Source of the DNA: Clostridiales bacterium
GTDB taxonomy: Bacteria; Bacillota; Clostridia; Oscillospirales; Oscillospiraceae
Direction of reading: 5' to 3'
Assembly (NCBI GenBank): GCA_021203325.1
Contig: JAJQBL010000081.1
Location: 1-52,929, forward strand
Length of the DNA stretch: 52,929 bases
Shown: in pieces, positions 16,721-42,588 of the stretch
How the letters are laid out: each line of letters starts with the position of its first letter
Numbering within the stretch: position 1 is the stretch's first letter
Program-made: the position numbers and the translations under genes
The notes under the pieces: generated by a model
Databases searched by the model: none
What the model was told of the DNA's origin: nothing
What the model saw: the letters and a program-made list of their open reading frames with translations, nothing else

Positions 16721-16930
16721 TTACTGCACGCCCTTGACCTCGTAGCCTGCGTTGGTGACGGCGGCGGTCAGCACCTCGTCCGCCACAGGGGCGTCCAGGG
16801 TGACGGTGGCGGTTTTGGCCTCCAGATCGGCCACGGCGGAGGTTACCCCCGCCACGGCGGACAGGGCCTTTTCCACCCGGGCCTTGCAGTGGACGCACAT
16901 CATGCCCTCTACAGTCAGTACCTTTGTCAT
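16721..16930 (-). CDS. Possible internally initiated CopZ-like copper chaperone
   Basis: In frame with the end of copA, an ATG at 16930 is preceded by GAGGTGAAAGAA, a strong SD at good spacing. Translation from it would give a 69-residue HMA protein ([15 protein letters not shown] start), the length of a stand-alone CopZ. This is either the relic of a fused copZ gene or a functional internal start that delivers the free chaperone from the same mRNA; sequence alone cannot decide. Confidence 0.45.
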
Positions 16931-19594
16931 TTCTTTCACCTCATTTTGATTGTTATCTGCTTCACTCCTGGGAGTGGGGACAGTACATTCACCCGGCTCA
17001 TAGCCCGCCTCTGCCACGGCGGCGGCCAGCACACTGTCCGCCACGGTCGTGTCCAGGACGATGGTGGCGGTTTTGGCCTCCAGGTCGGCTTTCGCGGAGC
17101 GCACCTCCGGGATGGCCGTCAGCGCCTCCTCCGCCCGGCGGGTGCAGTGCTGGCACATCATGCCGTTGACGGTGAGGACGCGGGTCTCTCCGTCATTCTG
17201 CGATGCGGGCAGGGGGCAGGCCGGAGTTTCCTGTGGGGCGGGGATGGGACAGGCCGGGGCCTCCGCCGGTTCCGCCGGAGCGGAGGGAGAAGGAGCGGCG
17301 GGGGCGCTGTGCTTCGGCTTGAAGAACCGCAGCCGCAGGGCGTTGGACACCACGGAGACGGAGCTCAAACTCATGGCCGCCGCGCCGAAGATTGGGCTGA
17401 GCTGCCAGCCCAGAATGGGGTAGAACACGCCGGCGGCCAACGGGATGCCCACGCAGTTATAGCAGAAGGCCCAGAACAGGTCCTGCTTGATGTTGCGGAT
17501 GGTGGCCCGGCTCAGCTCCATGGCGGTGACGGCATCGGTGAGGCTGCTCTTCATCAGCACCACGTCGGCGGATTCCAGGGCCACATCGGTGCCTGCGCCG
17601 ATGGCAATGCCCACATCCGCCCGGGTCAGGGCGGGGGCGTCGTTGATGCCGTCCCCCACCATGGCCACCTTGCGGCCCTCCTGCTGGAGGGCGGAGATTT
17701 TCGCCTCCTTCTCGGTGGGCAGCACCCCGGCGATATAGGAGGAGATGCCCAAGGTCTTGGCCACGGCGGCGGCGGTGCGCTGGTTGTCGCCGGTCAGCAT
17801 GACCACCTCCACCCCCAGGTCCCGGAAGGCGTCCACGGCGGCCTTGCTGTCGCTGCGGGGCACATCCGCCACGGCGATGATGCCCAGAAGCCTGCCGTCG
17901 GCGGCGAAGTACAGCGGGGTCTTTCCCGCCTCCGCCAGGGCGTCCCCCGCCCCGTCGGGGACGGCGACGCCCTCCGCCTCCATCAGCGCCTGATTGCCCG
18001 CGAGAAATGCTTTCCCCTCCAGCGAAGCCCGCAGGCCCCGGCCGGGCTGGGCGGAGAAGTCCTCCACCGGCGCGGTGGCGAGGCCCCGCTCCCTGGCGGC
18101 CCGGACGATGGCCTCCGCCAGAGGATGCTCTGAGGGGGCCTCCAGGGAGGCGGCCAGCCGGAGCAGTTCCTCCTGGGAAATACCCTCTGCCGGCACCAGG
18201 TCGGTGACCACCGGCTTGCCCTCGGTCAGGGTGCCGGTTTTGTCCACCACCACGGTGTTCACGTTGTGGAGGGATTCCAGCGCTTCGGCGGACTTGAACA
18301 GGACGCCCAGCTCCGCCCCCTTGCCGGTGCCCACCATGATGGCCACCGGCGTGGCCAGCCCCAGGGCGCAGGGGCAGGAGATCACCAGCACCGCCACAGC
18401 GGAGGTCAACGCGCTGGAGACGCTGCCGGAAACCAGCATCCACACCACGAAGGTGACCAGCGAAATGCACAGCACCACCGGCACGAACACCCCCGCCACC
18501 TTGTCTGCCAGCTTGGCGATGGGGGCCTTGCTGGCGGAGGCGTCCTCCACCAGATGAATGATCTGGGACAGGGTGGTGTCCTCCCCCACCCGGGTGGCCC
18601 GGAAGGTGAAGGAGCCGTTCTTGTTAATGGTGGCGGCGGAGACGCTGTCGCCAGCGCCCTTCTCCACGGGGATGGATTCCCCGGTGAGGGCGCTCTCATC
18701 CACGGCGGAGGCGCCGGTCAGCACCACCCCGTCCACCGGGATGGCCTCGCCGGGGCGCACCAGCAGGGTGTCCCCGGGCTGCACCTCCTCCACCGGGACG
18801 ACAGATTCTGTGCCGTCCTCCAGACGGGTGGCGGTCTTGGGGGCCAGGTCCATCAGCCGCTCCATGGCCTGACTGGTCTTGCCCTTGCTCCGTGTCTCCA
18901 GGAACTTCCCCACCGTCACCAGGGTCAGAATCATGCCCACGCTCTCCAGATAGAGGTGGTTCATATGGTACTCCTCCGCCAGCTCCAGATCGCCGTGGCC
19001 CAATGCCCAGCCGACGACGAACATGGCGTAGAGGGAGTACAGCAGGGAGGCGGCGGCCCCCAGGGCCACCAGCGAGTCCATGTTGGGGGCGCGGCGGAAC
19101 AGGGCGGGGAAACCCACCTTAAAATACTTGTCGTTGACGTACAAAATGGGCAGTACCAGCACAAACTGGAGCAGGGCGTAGGTCATGCTGTTCTCCGCCC
19201 CAGTGAGGAAGGAGGGCAGCGGGGCGCCGAACATATGCCCCATGCAGACGTAAACGAGCGGAATCAGGAAGCAGACGGAGATGATCAGCCGGGTCTTCAT
19301 CCACCGCAGCTCTTTGTTCATCTCCTCCTTCCGGGCCTGAGCCTCCGCCTGGGCGGAGGAGACGGCCCTGCCTTTCTGTTCCTGTCCGGCCACCGTGGCC
19401 CGATAGCCCGCCTTCTCCACGGCGGCGCAGATGTCCTGGGGGGTCAGGGCGTCCGGGTCGTAGGTGACCACCATCGTCCCGGCCAGCAGGTTGACGGCCG
19501 CGTCCTCCACGCCCGCCAGGCCGCCTGCCGCCTTCTCCACATGGGCCTGGCAGGCGGCGCAGCTCATGCCGAATACATTGAACTTTTGCTTCAT
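16721..19594 (-). CDS. copA: Copper-exporting P1B-type ATPase with N- and C-terminal HMA domains
   Basis: A 957-residue heavy-metal ATPase. Residues 1-70 are an HMA domain (CAAC, Cys12/Cys15). The core has TGES, the membrane metal site CPC (407-409), phosphorylation motif DKTGT (Asp451), HP (490-491), TGDN (601-604) and GDGIND (647-652), as in Cu+ exporters. After a Pro/Ala-rich linker come two more HMA domains (803-868 with CQHC; 889-957 with CVHC), which is unusual since these normally precede the membrane core. The last starts at an internal Met with its own SD, so a free CopZ-like chaperone may also be made. Start has SD AAAGGAA; CsoR lies 27 bp upstream. Confidence 0.95.
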
Positions 19595-38449: not shown

Positions 38450-39286
38450 TCATTCCCCCAGCAGCCGCCGGCTCAGCACCGTATAGTGCTGGTACAGCAC
38501 CCCGAACCGATGCCGGTACCGGGGTTTCCACGGCTTGGCCTTGCCGCAGAAGTGGAGGATGGCGGTGTATTGCATCACCCACTCCACGGTGGACTCCCCG
38601 CCGCTGCGGAGGTAATAATCCCGAAACTTCCGGGCGTCGTAGTTCCAGAGGTAGTCGTCCACCTCCAGCGTCTCCCGCCCGTAGAGGCAGTTCAAAATGT
38701 CCTGATCGGGCAGCACCAGGTCGTCGGCGTGTTCCCGGGCGTACCGGAATACCTCCTCCGGCTGAACCTTCCTCCGGCACTCGTCCAAATCAATGACCAG
38801 CACGCCGGAGTTATAGTATTTATGCTCCGTGCCCAGGCGGAGGTTGTTCACCGTGTTGCTCAGCTCCGTCTTGTGGGTGTGGGCCGCCGCCGCAAACATC
38901 CTGCCCTGCAAATCCAGCGTCCACAGGGGACGGACAGGGTTGATGACCAGCAGATCCGGGTCCAGGTACAGCACCCGCTTCAGCGTCCGGGGCAGCAGCT
39001 GCCCCGCCAGCAGGCGGTAATACATCTCCTGCGGGTAGCGTTTGGACACCGGGGCCTCCGCAAACAGCGCCTCATCCACCACCACCGGGTGCAGGCGATA
39101 GCGCAGCGGGCGAAGCTGCTCCGCCAGCCGTTCCAGCGCCTCCTCCGGGATGGCCCGGTGGAGCAGGTACAGCTCAACGGGCTGGTTCGGGTCGGTCAGG
39201 TACAGGGAGGTCAGCAGCACCCGCAGTCTGGGCAGATAGGCTTCATCCAGGGTGACCAGGATATTCATTGGTGACTGTTGTTCCAT
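38450..39286 (-). CDS. Glycosyltransferase family 8 protein
   Basis: A 278-residue GT-A enzyme. MNILVTLDEAYLPRLRVLLTSL is a GT8 N-terminus; YLDPDLLV holds the metal-binding DxD; LPDQDILN and HFCGKAKPW near the end are family features. It transfers a hexose from a nucleotide sugar to an unknown acceptor. ATG at 39286 has GGAGGGG; it lies 13 bp after the pseudo-ATPase gene and is likely co-transcribed. Confidence 0.9.
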   Translation of the reverse strand: MEQQSPMNILVTLDEAYLPRLRVLLTSLYLTDPNQPVELYLLHRAIPEEALERLAEQLRPLRYRLHPVVVDEALFAEAPVSKRYPQEMYYRLLAGQLLPRTLKRVLYLDPDLLVINPVRPLWTLDLQGRMFAAAAHTHKTELSNTVNNLRLGTEHKYYNSGVLVIDLDECRRKVQPEEVFRYAREHADDLVLPDQDILNCLYGRETLEVDDYLWNYDARKFRDYYLRSGGESTVEWVMQYTAILHFCGKAKPWKPRYRHRFGVLYQHYTVLSRRLLGE

Positions 39287-39299
39287 CGGGCCCCTCCGT

Positions 39300-41579
39300 C
39301 TAAAACTTATCCGCAAATCCGGCGATCAGCAGCTCCGGCACCAGCCACAGCCCCAGGAAGGTCAGCAGATTCACTGCGGACAGGGAGGCAAAGGCCAGCT
39401 GACTGGTCAGATAGGTGGCCATCAGAATCCCCACCACCGAGGCCAGCAGGGCCAGCACCGTGTTGAGCCGCACCAGGCTGCACAGCCGCCGTCCGCCCAC
39501 GATGGCGTCGGAGAAGGCGCCCAGACCCTCCCGCAGCAGCAGCGCACCCAGCACCTCGTTATGGGTCTGGCCGGGCTGAGACAGCTCCCGCCGCCGCTTG
39601 ATGGGGGGATATTCCATCTGGTCAGAGGGGAGGTCATACCGCTGGAGGGTGCCGGGGGTGATGTTAAAGTCCCGGGTGGCCAGCACCGGCGACACGCCGG
39701 AGCGAATCAGCTCCCGCAATGCGGGCTTTACATAGTGGGAGGGGTTGTAATCCAGCTTGAACATTCCTACAATTTGCCGGTTGATGACGCAGTACACGGC
39801 GGAGCGCACCCGGTTCCCCTCCATGGGAATGCGGTTCACCGCCAGGAAGCCGTCGGTGCCCACCAGCACGCTGTCCCCCCGGATGGTGGCGCTGAGGCCG
39901 CCGGCCTCGCTGCACTCCGGGTCGTTCACCGTGCGGTAGAAGCCGCCCTGCATTTTCAGCTGGTCCTCAAAAATCCCTGTCAGGCCGCTGCCCGCGCTGC
40001 GGAGCAGGGAGGCGGTGCAGGCCACCACCCGCTCCTCGGACACGTTGCCATAGTACCGTATATCGGTGATGGTGACGCAGCCCGCCGGGAACAGGTCCTC
40101 GTCCTTGATCAAGATGTTGGCCTGGCCGGACATACTGGCCGCGCCGTCCCAGCCTGCCAGCACCGCGCCGAAGCGGTCCAGGCGGCGGGTCACCCGCAGC
40201 AGGGGCTGGCCGTAAATCAGCAGGGAGGACACCGGCGACGCCGCCACCAGCACGGTGGACAGGCACCACAGCAGCATGCTCCGCTCCCCGCTGTGCACCG
40301 TCGCGCCGACGGCCAGCACCACCGCCCCGATCAGCAGGAACGGAACGACAATGCGGCAGATTCTGGTGGAGCCGTCCATGCTCTGAATCTGGCTGCCGAA
40401 GCCCTGTGTGGTACCGGCCTCCTTGTCGAAGGCGGGGGCACCGTCCCACTTGTCCTCGTCCAGCGTCACCCGATAGGGCTCCGCCGTGCCGGAGACGGTG
40501 CGGCAGGAGATGTAAAGGGCCTTTTTCCGGTCGTAGGCGCCCCACATGGCCCCAAACAGGCTCAGGGCGGCCAAACCGGCCAGGGGCAGGGGCCCTTCCC
40601 GCCCGACTACAGCGTAGAAAACGCCGTCCAGCAGTGTGGCGATCACCGCCGCCGCCGTCAGGGTGTGGAGGCCGGTGCAGCGCCGCACCGGGGCGCTGAG
40701 CCCCAGCCAGATCACATCCAGCCCCAGTACGGCGGCCATGGCCAGCCCCCAGGTCAGGCAGAGAGCCAGCACCTTGGGCTCCTCCGCCAGCACCGCGGGC
40801 AGCGGCCAGCCCAACTCCTGGGCCAGGGCCAGGCCGATCAGCGCGATGGCGATGATCAGCACCATCCACACCCGCCTTCCCAGGGAATCCAGCCCGGTGC
40901 GGTACCGCTGGGCCAGATCCTCCGCGCTCAGGTCGGGGGCTGCCGCCCGCTGCTTCACCCGCCGGGGTTTTTTGGCCTTTGCGGGGGGAGGCGTCTCCTG
41001 GTCGGTGCCGGGGGTATAGCGCTCCTCCAGACGGGCCTGCTCGTCCTGCTTGTCGCTGCGGAACATGTTGTCCGCAAAGTCGTTGGCCCTGTCCTGCACC
41101 GCATTCAGCGTCTGCTTGATGGAGTGCAGCGGGTCGGCGGGCATGGAGAGGACGTTGTCCACGTCCTCCGTCTCCTCCGGCTCCGCGGGCTGCTTTTTCC
41201 GGTGGAAGAGCCGCTGCCAGAAGGTCGGCTGTTCCTCCGGCTCAATGGCCTGGGAGACCTGCTGCTGAATGAACCGCCGGGTCTCGTCCGGGTCCACCGG
41301 TTCCACCGGCTCCGCCGGGGCGGCTGACATGGGCTGCTCCAGGGGGACGTCGTCCTGGAGCCGCTGCTCAATCCGCTCCATCCGGCTTTCGGCGGCCTCC
41401 GGGGTGACGGCATCCGTGTCGGCATACTCCCGGATGATCTCATCCAGCTCATAGGCCGTCTCATTGGGCACCGCGCCGGTGTGCATCATCTCTTCCACAT
41501 CGTTCAGTTCATCCACGGTGTTCCATTTGGTTGTTTCCAGCTCCTCTTCGGGAGTTTCGGTTCCACGCTGTTCGTTCAT
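39300..41579 (-). CDS. Degenerate P-type-ATPase-like membrane protein
   Basis: A 759-residue protein I cannot assign to a named family. Residues 1-225 are acidic, low-complexity and cytoplasmic-looking; about 235-345 hold four to five helices, 405-465 two more, and 700-755 two last. The region 436-545 is collinear with the P1B core: SP at 448-449 stands where CPC would be, and KDEDLFP (492-498) where DKTGTLT would be. GDSVLVG (568-574), VGMFKLD (604-610) and SGVSPVLATRDF (627-638) mirror the N-domain and the [11 protein letters not shown] stretch. The catalytic Asp, TGES and GDGxND are absent, so it should not pump ions. It lies between rlmB and a GT8 gene in one operon. Confidence 0.65.
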   Translation of the reverse strand: MNEQRGTETPEEELETTKWNTVDELNDVEEMMHTGAVPNETAYELDEIIREYADTDAVTPEAAESRMERIEQRLQDDVPLEQPMSAAPAEPVEPVDPDETRRFIQQQVSQAIEPEEQPTFWQRLFHRKKQPAEPEETEDVDNVLSMPADPLHSIKQTLNAVQDRANDFADNMFRSDKQDEQARLEERYTPGTDQETPPPAKAKKPRRVKQRAAAPDLSAEDLAQRYRTGLDSLGRRVWMVLIIAIALIGLALAQELGWPLPAVLAEEPKVLALCLTWGLAMAAVLGLDVIWLGLSAPVRRCTGLHTLTAAAVIATLLDGVFYAVVGREGPLPLAGLAALSLFGAMWGAYDRKKALYISCRTVSGTAEPYRVTLDEDKWDGAPAFDKEAGTTQGFGSQIQSMDGSTRICRIVVPFLLIGAVVLAVGATVHSGERSMLLWCLSTVLVAASPVSSLLIYGQPLLRVTRRLDRFGAVLAGWDGAASMSGQANILIKDEDLFPAGCVTITDIRYYGNVSEERVVACTASLLRSAGSGLTGIFEDQLKMQGGFYRTVNDPECSEAGGLSATIRGDSVLVGTDGFLAVNRIPMEGNRVRSAVYCVINRQIVGMFKLDYNPSHYVKPALRELIRSGVSPVLATRDFNITPGTLQRYDLPSDQMEYPPIKRRRELSQPGQTHNEVLGALLLREGLGAFSDAIVGGRRLCSLVRLNTVLALLASVVGILMATYLTSQLAFASLSAVNLLTFLGLWLVPELLIAGFADKF

Positions 41580-41644: not shown

Positions 41645-42523
41645 TCAACCCAGGCGCTGACGCACCGCCTCATACAGCAGGATGGCCGCCGACGCCGACG
41701 CATTCAGAGAATTGACCTGCCCCTTCATGGGAATACTGACCGTAAAATCGCAGCACTCCCGCACAAGGCGGTTCATCCCGAAGCCCTTGCTGCCGATGAC
41801 GATGGCAGCGGCCCCCTTGAAGTCCGCCTGATAGAGGGGCGTCTCCCCATCGGCCTCCGCGCCAAAAATCCACACGCCCCGTTTCTTCAGGTCGTTCAGC
41901 GTGGCCGTCAGGTTGGGCACCCTTGCCACCGGCACATAGCTCACCGCCCCTGCGCTGGTCTTGGCCACCACCGCCGTCAGCCCCGCGCTCCGGCGTTTGG
42001 GGATGATGACGCCGTGGGCGCCGGCACACTCCGCCGTCCGGATCACCGCCCCCAGGTTGTGGGGGTCGGACAGCTCGTCGCACACCACGATCAGCGGCGG
42101 CTCCCCCTTCTCCTCCGCGGCCCGGAGAATATCGTCCACATCGGCGTATTCCCGCACGGCGGTCAGGGCGATGACACCCTGATGGGAGTGGGTGCGGGAC
42201 ATGGCGTCCAGCTTCCGCCGGTCGGCGTCCACCACCACCGCGCCGCTCTCCCTGGCCTTGGCGGAGATATAGCTCAGGGTGGAGTCCGTCTCCCCTTTGG
42301 CGATATAAACCTTATCCAGCGCCGCCCCGGCCCGGAGGGCCTCCATGACGGCGTTGCGCCCCTCGATGACGCCGTCGGCCTCCGCCTCGGAGGGCTGACG
42401 GCGGGAGGGATTGTCCCGCCGCTCCGGCTTCCGGTCGCCCCGGTCCTCCCGCTGCCTGCGGGGCGGGCGGCGGTCCGTGCCCTTCTTCTCCTGCGCCCCG
42501 GACGGGCGCTTTTCCTCGTTCAT
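41645..42523 (-). CDS. rlmB: 23S rRNA (guanosine-2'-O)-methyltransferase RlmB-like
   Basis: A 292-residue SPOUT (TrmH-family) enzyme. A basic Arg/Lys-rich tail (residues 1-45) precedes the L30e-like substrate domain (IEGRNAVMEAL). The knotted SAM site has DPHNLGAVIRTAE, IVIGSKGFGM and SLNASASAAILLYE. The usual GSEGxG has Lys instead of Glu, a change worth noting. ATG at 42523 has GAAAGGA. It is first of an operon with the pseudo-ATPase and GT8 genes. Confidence 0.9.
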   Translation of the reverse strand: MNEEKRPSGAQEKKGTDRRPPRRQREDRGDRKPERRDNPSRRQPSEAEADGVIEGRNAVMEALRAGAALDKVYIAKGETDSTLSYISAKARESGAVVVDADRRKLDAMSRTHSHQGVIALTAVREYADVDDILRAAEEKGEPPLIVVCDELSDPHNLGAVIRTAECAGAHGVIIPKRRSAGLTAVVAKTSAGAVSYVPVARVPNLTATLNDLKKRGVWIFGAEADGETPLYQADFKGAAAIVIGSKGFGMNRLVRECCDFTVSIPMKGQVNSLNASASAAILLYEAVRQRLG

Positions 42524-42588
42524 CCGGTTTCTTCCTTTCCAAAAAGCGGCCCGCCGGTCAGACTCCCGCATCAGGCCCTACGGAATCC

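Follow-up and report, generated by a model that had tools for sequence, protein, structure and literature searches.

P-type pumping depends on the phosphorylated aspartate of the DKTGT motif, and a P-type protein without this and the other signature motifs cannot run the pump cycle. Pseudoenzymes are well known among other enzyme families. Among P-type proteins, the nearest described case that we encountered, as far as passages of the sources show, is human TMEM94, which we take to be the same protein as ERMA. Passages of one paper give TMEM94 a P-type-like architecture without TGES, with no ATPase activity detected and with some affinity for nucleotide (PMC12134183). Another paper presents ERMA as an ER Mg ATPase (PMC13322241), and between such accounts the P-type status of TMEM94 is contested. 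Going by description only, TMEM94 differs from the family reported here in being eukaryotic, in having ten helices, in keeping an A-like domain and in offering a candidate aspartate, Asp417. In the literature searched, whose scope excluded most subscription papers and bioRxiv, there was no description of a bacterial family of inactive or pseudo P-type ATPases, and a term search of one review (PMC10654040) returned two passages, neither of which concerned such a pseudo-pump family.

P1B ATPases of the CopA type share with the family a membrane core and an N domain of equal length, collinear over 503 alignment columns. In contrast to CopA, the family is without DKTGT, TGES, GDGxND, CPC and the N-domain histidine, its A domain is halved, and an acidic tail stands in place of the N-terminal metal-binding domains of CopA.

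The window, by which we mean the whole stretch of 52,929 nucleotides of Clostridiales DNA that was analysed (contig JAJQBL010000081.1), carries the open reading frame for a 759-aa membrane protein exactly where the original prediction had placed it (39300-41579, minus strand; Table 1). The frame starts with ATG, with AAGGTGGG a little way upstream, and its stop is separated by the predicted 13 bp from the ATG of the next gene at 39286. Searched as a single sequence, the protein had zero Pfam matches, a best PDB E-value of 0.13, with no match convincing, and a weak match to TIGR01525 (E 0.0063). The general P-type model TIGR01494 misses this gene in the host genome and picks up five other frames, namely the CopA encoded in the same window (16721-19594) and four further frames. 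In the host CopA (minus strand, 957 aa), CopZ-like metal-binding models match at the N-terminal as well as at the C-terminal end. We regard the 759-aa frame as a real gene, since relatives were observed in 57 of 59 genomes drawn from the genus, family and order of the window and since the core of the protein is under purifying selection.

Table 1. Features of the pseudo-P1B gene and its neighbours in the window (residue numbers refer to the 759-aa protein).
Feature	Position	Strand	Basis
rlmB, 23S rRNA (G2251) 2'-O-methyltransferase	41645..42571	-	TIGR00186 at 232 bits (cut-off 160); 65 bp before the pseudo-P1B gene
Putative pseudo-P1B ATPase, 759 aa	39300..41579	-	ORF; profile and CopA alignment
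Acidic N-terminal tail, residues 1-233	40881..41579	-	Net charge -27
Linear motif YELDEIIREY, residues 43-52, of the type [FY]SLDDILAE[FY]	41424..41453	-	Relaxed pattern match
Four hydrophobic segments corresponding to MA, MB, M1 and M2 of CopA (fourth weak), residues 238-341	40557..40868	-	Hydropathy; collinear profile matches
A (actuator) domain remnant without TGES, residues 350-411	40347..40532	-	M2-M3 span
M3 and M4, residues 412-454	40218..40346	-	Family-averaged hydropathy
S-P-V in place of CPC in M4, residues 448-450	40230..40238	-	CopA alignment
KDEDLFP in place of DKTGTLT, residues 492-498	40086..40106	-	Alignment; family motif xDx[DE][LVI]FP
N domain, full length, residues 499-634	39678..40085	-	Span comparison with CopA
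TRDFNITP in place of TGDNxxTA, residues 635-642; GDGxND segment after it deleted	39654..39677	-	Alignment
Last two hydrophobic segments, corresponding to M5 and M6, residues 710-748	39336..39452	-	Family-averaged hydropathy
Glycosyltransferase-like gene (GT8 in the original prediction)	38450..39286	-	Best NCBIfam match PRK15171, far below cut-off; 13 bp downstream

The original prediction had proposed comparing the protein with P-type ATPase structures by HHpred or Foldseek. An alignment of 37 family members reaching from the genus out to the order (A5), in which no canonical pump was included, was used as an HMM in a HMMER search of 177,635 PDB sequences. P1B ATPases took the first 22 of the 35 rows, among them Legionella CopA (3rfu; E 1.2e-30), Archaeoglobus fulgidus CopA (5.5e-22) and the soluble ATP-binding domain of CopB (5.6e-17); matches to soluble domains indicate that the likeness is more than one of membrane composition. 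A smaller alignment (A2) reached 2e-10. With Legionella CopA and two A. fulgidus CopA entries, HMMER returned three collinear stretches, MA-M2, M3 to the P/N domains, and M5-M6, and the score comes from the middle one; the first scores weakly (independent E 0.051 to 0.0068), and the last by itself falls short of significance. Using hhalign, A5 and two CopA proteins (from the window and from locus L057) were joined in one alignment over the 503 columns at 99.8% and an E-value of 2e-30. Single members gave NCBIfam P1B matches, at E-values of up to 1, in 22 of 37 cases, and a Pfam E1-E2_ATPase match in one (E 1).

By profile search and hhalign, P1B homology is detectable over the membrane core and the P/N domains. 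The gap-free alignment with CopA that had been described, in which S-P-V falls on CPC and K-D-E-D-L-F-P on DKTGTLT, was recovered with ungapped flanks. The likeness had been put at residues 436-545 and a two-helix end; these parts stood, and its actual extent is wider, taking in the whole membrane core with eight hydrophobic segments. Judged from these comparisons, the family is a P-type (P1B) homologue, and the sequence profiles suggest that the P-type fold has been kept in what would be a family of pseudo-pumps.

Family-averaged hydropathy placed the eight hydrophobic segments, which is the P1B number, at residues 238-252, 271-289, 312-319, 337-341, 412-428, 442-454, 710-729 and 738-748, the fourth being weak. 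Between M2 and M3 the family has a median of 69.5 residues (55-84) against 138 in CopA, a halving of the A domain; from TGD to M5 it is 64 residues against 96. The N-domain span has a median of 142 residues, as it does in CopA (142).

Motifs were counted over 86 members, with the split gene of locus L045 left out, by a regular-expression search of the last 640 residues of each protein. The DKTGT motif was present in none of the 86. At its first position 24 members have D, 20 have T, 10 have S and the rest have other residues, and D never stands within the motif; a survey of whether the aspartate is always lost had been proposed. The replacement motif xDx[DE][LVI]FP has D at 493 in 63/86 members and D or E at 495 in 81/86. 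TGES and GDGxND, whose absence had been noted, are indeed missing from the window protein; no member has TGES at the A-domain site or a GDGxND string anywhere in the region searched, and all 86 rows are gapped at GDGIND. CPC was likewise found in none of the 86, and of the P1B metal-site strings CPC, SPC and CPH the one seen is an SPC in L149, unplaced within that protein; the proline of CPC is present in 59/86. TGE[STA] strings in L039 and L180 were rejected as A-domain motifs because both sit outside the A domain, and an apparent DKTG in L193 is actually DKSG, elsewhere in the protein.

The ATP-binding histidine of the N domain (HP) was observed in 0/86 members at the aligned column, with H one column earlier in five. 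In the GxG motif of this domain the second glycine is kept in 84/86 members and the first in 28/86. Residues retained or newly fixed are G574 (86/86) and G561 (84/86) of the N domain, Y611 (83/86), D637 (81/86), N639 (72/86) and W745 (91%); the lysine of LPxxK is not conserved across the family. No charged, Cys or His residue occurs in the membrane segments among columns conserved at 55% or more. As read from its motifs, the family is a pseudo-pump for which the known phosphorylation cycle would be impossible.

An order-wide draw gave a family-level match in 192 of 197 genomes (E 4.2e-55 or better), and motif loss was read in those of the 192 whose loci were examined. The other five (G343, G349, G374, G394 and G427) gave weaker matches only, and those examined contain DKTGT. 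Loss of the gene is likely in G374 and G427, as both belong to one genus, and G343, G349 and G394 may reflect either losses or assembly gaps. By whole-protein score, canonical pumps reach 161.0 bits against 167.2 for the weakest member read, and since the pump scores come this close, the weakest of the 192 (locus L210 of genome G485) was assigned to the family by its missing motifs, being without DKTGT, GDGxND, TGE and CPC.

A class-wide draw covered 196 genomes, and our statements on it concern the matches listed (144 rows without a match are unlisted). Nine listed genomes of the order matched at 9.9e-90 or better, and 23 from outside it matched at 5.3e-36 or worse; the outside matches appear CopA-like and are local, at the same model positions as the host CopA (3.8e-34). 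As far as sampled, the family is confined to one order, probably Oscillospirales; named relatives with the gene belong to the Oscillospiraceae, e.g. Flavonifractor and Pseudoflavonifractor. In the 59-genome draw, second matches in a genome comprised fragments of the tail, a fragment located on a different contig and one canonical CopA; the gene accordingly looks single-copy.

In an unrooted tree of 29 of the 86 members with 14 canonical pumps, one branch with 100/100 support splits the two. This branch and the shared deletions favour one origin, and the family probably arose once. Core dN/dS was 0.064-0.235 in five close pairs and 0.442 in a sixth, more distant pair; tail values were 0.106-0.294, the last with near-saturated synonymous sites. 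The core is under purifying selection, and the reading as a decaying pseudogene was rejected. In G056 an in-frame TGA within the membrane core splits the family gene (L056:2721-4948, plus strand), and in G046 the gene consists of two overlapping frames (L045:2665-5061, plus strand); these split frames may reflect sequencing error, decay or recoding.

Gene neighbourhoods were compared over 87 loci, comprising the window, 26 loci from the 59-genome draw and 60 chosen order-wide, each from another genus; the weakest matches are under-represented in this set. With one locus per genus, 82 of the 87 genera have an upstream rlmB gene that shares the strand of the family gene. It is within 100 bp of the family gene, or overlaps its start, in 77 of the 82, at 109-182 bp in four and at 1,106 bp in one (L045), the last because the family frame is split there. 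RlmB scored above the curated cut-off in the three loci tested, including the window, and was placed by clustering in the remaining ones. The five loci without rlmB upstream are L032, where obgE directly precedes the family gene, L036 and L039, where an EF-G-like gene follows it, L152 and L177. An EF-G-like gene is downstream in 27 of 87 loci, with NF009381 above cut-off in the three tested, and an EF-G-like cluster occurs on the same strand in 30/87; the next recurrent clusters reach 7/87. In parts of the order the family gene has RlmB, the EF-G subfamily NF009381, ObgE (one locus) and an RsuA-like gene beside it. These are enzymes and GTPases of other families, and they bear on the family by gene context only.

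When the window protein served as tblastn query, the family turned up in 70 of 86 order-wide loci, 63 of them with RlmB upstream; RlmB was also upstream in 76 of 80 named loci and in 21 of 31 same-genus loci, only one there having more than 2.5 kb upstream. A GT8 homologue came next in six same-genus loci (26 of the 31 have more than 900 bases downstream) and in five named loci, all close relatives of the window (72 of the 80), and in none of the order-wide loci (67 of the 70). GT8 is a lineage-specific neighbour, found in close relatives only. The original prediction had envisaged a catalytically dead P-type fold reused for another role, possibly as partner of the GT8 enzyme, and had proposed a survey of whether homologues always sit next to rlmB or GT8 genes. 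A P1B core that is devoid of the motifs and under purifying selection agrees with the first idea and adjacency to rlmB holds widely, but the GT8 partnership is rejected, the conserved neighbour being rlmB upstream. In the window, no terminator-like site was found on the coding strand from rlmB to GT8, the next one downstream being at 38016-37988. Downstream in the window there is also an ORF that reads like a polysaccharide deacetylase.

The 220-residue acidic extension noted at the outset is as described, with 52 D/E against 25 K/R in residues 1-220, and it is a trait of the family, not of the window protein alone. In the 81 members measured, tails have a median length of 288 residues (range 20-905), and their net charge is negative in 73, positive in six and zero in two. 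A linear motif of the FSLDDILAEF type was derived from the family's own alignment. Its relaxed pattern occurs in the first 160 residues of 34 of 87 members, against a mean of 0.34 matches (maximum two) over 100 composition shuffles, which are uncorrected for kinship among members. Its strict form was found in 75 of 142 frames matching the family profile and in none of 8,473 other frames; the frames searched, 8,615 in all and each at least 80 aa long, came from 139 sources (the window and L001-L138), which were neighbourhoods and not whole genomes. The motif is likely a candidate docking site. In some genera RlmB itself carries a long N-terminal extension of net basic charge, which measures 68 residues in the window and 178 in L195, and in others it has almost none, with a median of 22 over 81; the records concerned are the window, L034, L055, L185 and L195. 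A charge pairing between this extension and the tail was tested and rejected (rho -0.01), which leaves direct binding of RlmB to the tail without support.

We hypothesise that in an ancestor of the order the gene of a copper-type (P1B) ATPase was stripped of its pumping machinery, probably in a single event, and that the disarmed gene persisted in the core gene set, apparently as a single-copy gene. Its product would retain the membrane core and the N-domain fold and carry a long, usually acidic N-terminal tail. It may serve as a non-pumping membrane platform or sensor, in which the cytoplasmic N/P remnant and the tail would bind a partner, with the tail motif as the likely docking site. Adjacency to rlmB, and in fewer loci to an EF-G-like gene, would link this role with the maturation of ribosomes or with translation at the membrane, and nucleotide or metal binding, if any, would be a signal and not fuel. 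We give a probability of about one half to the reading that a disarmed P1B core lives on as a membrane platform or sensor that does not pump, possibly with a part in ribosome maturation or translation. The sequences show homology, motif loss, constraint, the distribution described, a single clade and the rlmB pairing. Participation in ribosome maturation, or in translation close to the membrane, is the leading guess; it is gene order that speaks for it, since the gene upstream is in most loci that of a 23S rRNA methyltransferase and further neighbours belong to translation or rRNA. We are doubtful about the more specific proposal that the protein is, throughout the order, a membrane-bound ribosome-maturation or translation factor without catalysis, working together with RlmB and docking its partners via the acidic FSLDDILAEF-type tail. 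If true, a bacterial pseudo-pump found across one order would link an integral membrane P-type fold to rRNA biology. The gene is under selection, belongs to the near-universal core of a bacterial order, is invisible to Pfam and has a nearly constant upstream neighbour, and the family makes non-pumping uses of the P-type fold directly testable.

It would be possible, though we think it rather unlikely, that the rlmB link has no functional meaning and that the gene rides in the rlmB transcript while serving the envelope, in the cell wall or under membrane stress. The product is a membrane protein, and downstream in the window lie the glycosyltransferase-like gene and the putative polysaccharide deacetylase ORF; however, the glycosyltransferase is not a conserved neighbour, and the rlmB pair endures as the other neighbours change. 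We consider it unlikely that an active P-type ATPase of the same cell has the protein as a regulatory or heteromeric subunit, whose dead core would dimerise with the pump and control it. By sequence the protein shares the pump fold, and the host has its CopA in the same window as well as the four further TIGR01494 frames, but the conserved neighbour is rlmB and not a pump gene. Genomes G402 and G437 (94 and 97% complete) keep the family and have no TIGR01525 match above cut-off, which makes a regulator of P1B pumps less likely and led us to reject an obligatory partnership with them; other P-type-like frames in these two genomes are possible partners.

It seems quite improbable that the protein works as a passive channel for ions or metals, or as a metal sensor, having kept the membrane core of a pump and lost its energisation. 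Such a role would fit the eight hydrophobic segments and the frequent proline of CPC, but not the complete absence of CPC or the lack of charged, Cys and His residues among the conserved membrane columns. We think it very unlikely that a weak HAD-type phosphatase activity or nucleotide binding was kept, or re-evolved, through D-x-[DE] at 493 and 495 together with D637. All three positions are well occupied, and the spacing of the first two is that of the HAD motif DxD; against this, the GDGxND segment is deleted in every member, the LPxxK lysine is not conserved, and D493, when aligned without gaps, is displaced by one residue from the catalytic position, which itself holds D in the 24 members counted above.

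Two further proteins were noted in the neighbourhoods. A small protein in L036 (1462-1965, minus strand), with a hydrophobic stretch near its start as judged by eye and no NCBIfam match, has relatives in L039 and L050; proteins of this type are encoded 2.2-3.0 kb downstream, after the EF-G-like gene, in six of 87 loci. The other, encoded at L050:7051-9261 (minus strand) in genome G052, is a second degenerate P-type-like protein of 736 aa. It is nearest to P2/P3 pumps, with a TIGR01524 match (E 8.7e-18, 63.6 bits) far below cut-off, and is without DKTGT, TGE, TGD and GDG strings. At E 1e-30, three of 98 genomes of the order have a protein of this second type, and the three belong to one genus. 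In G052 its gene is separated from the family gene by rlmB, and in G371 and G393 it lies about 0.9 kb upstream of the family gene on the same strand.
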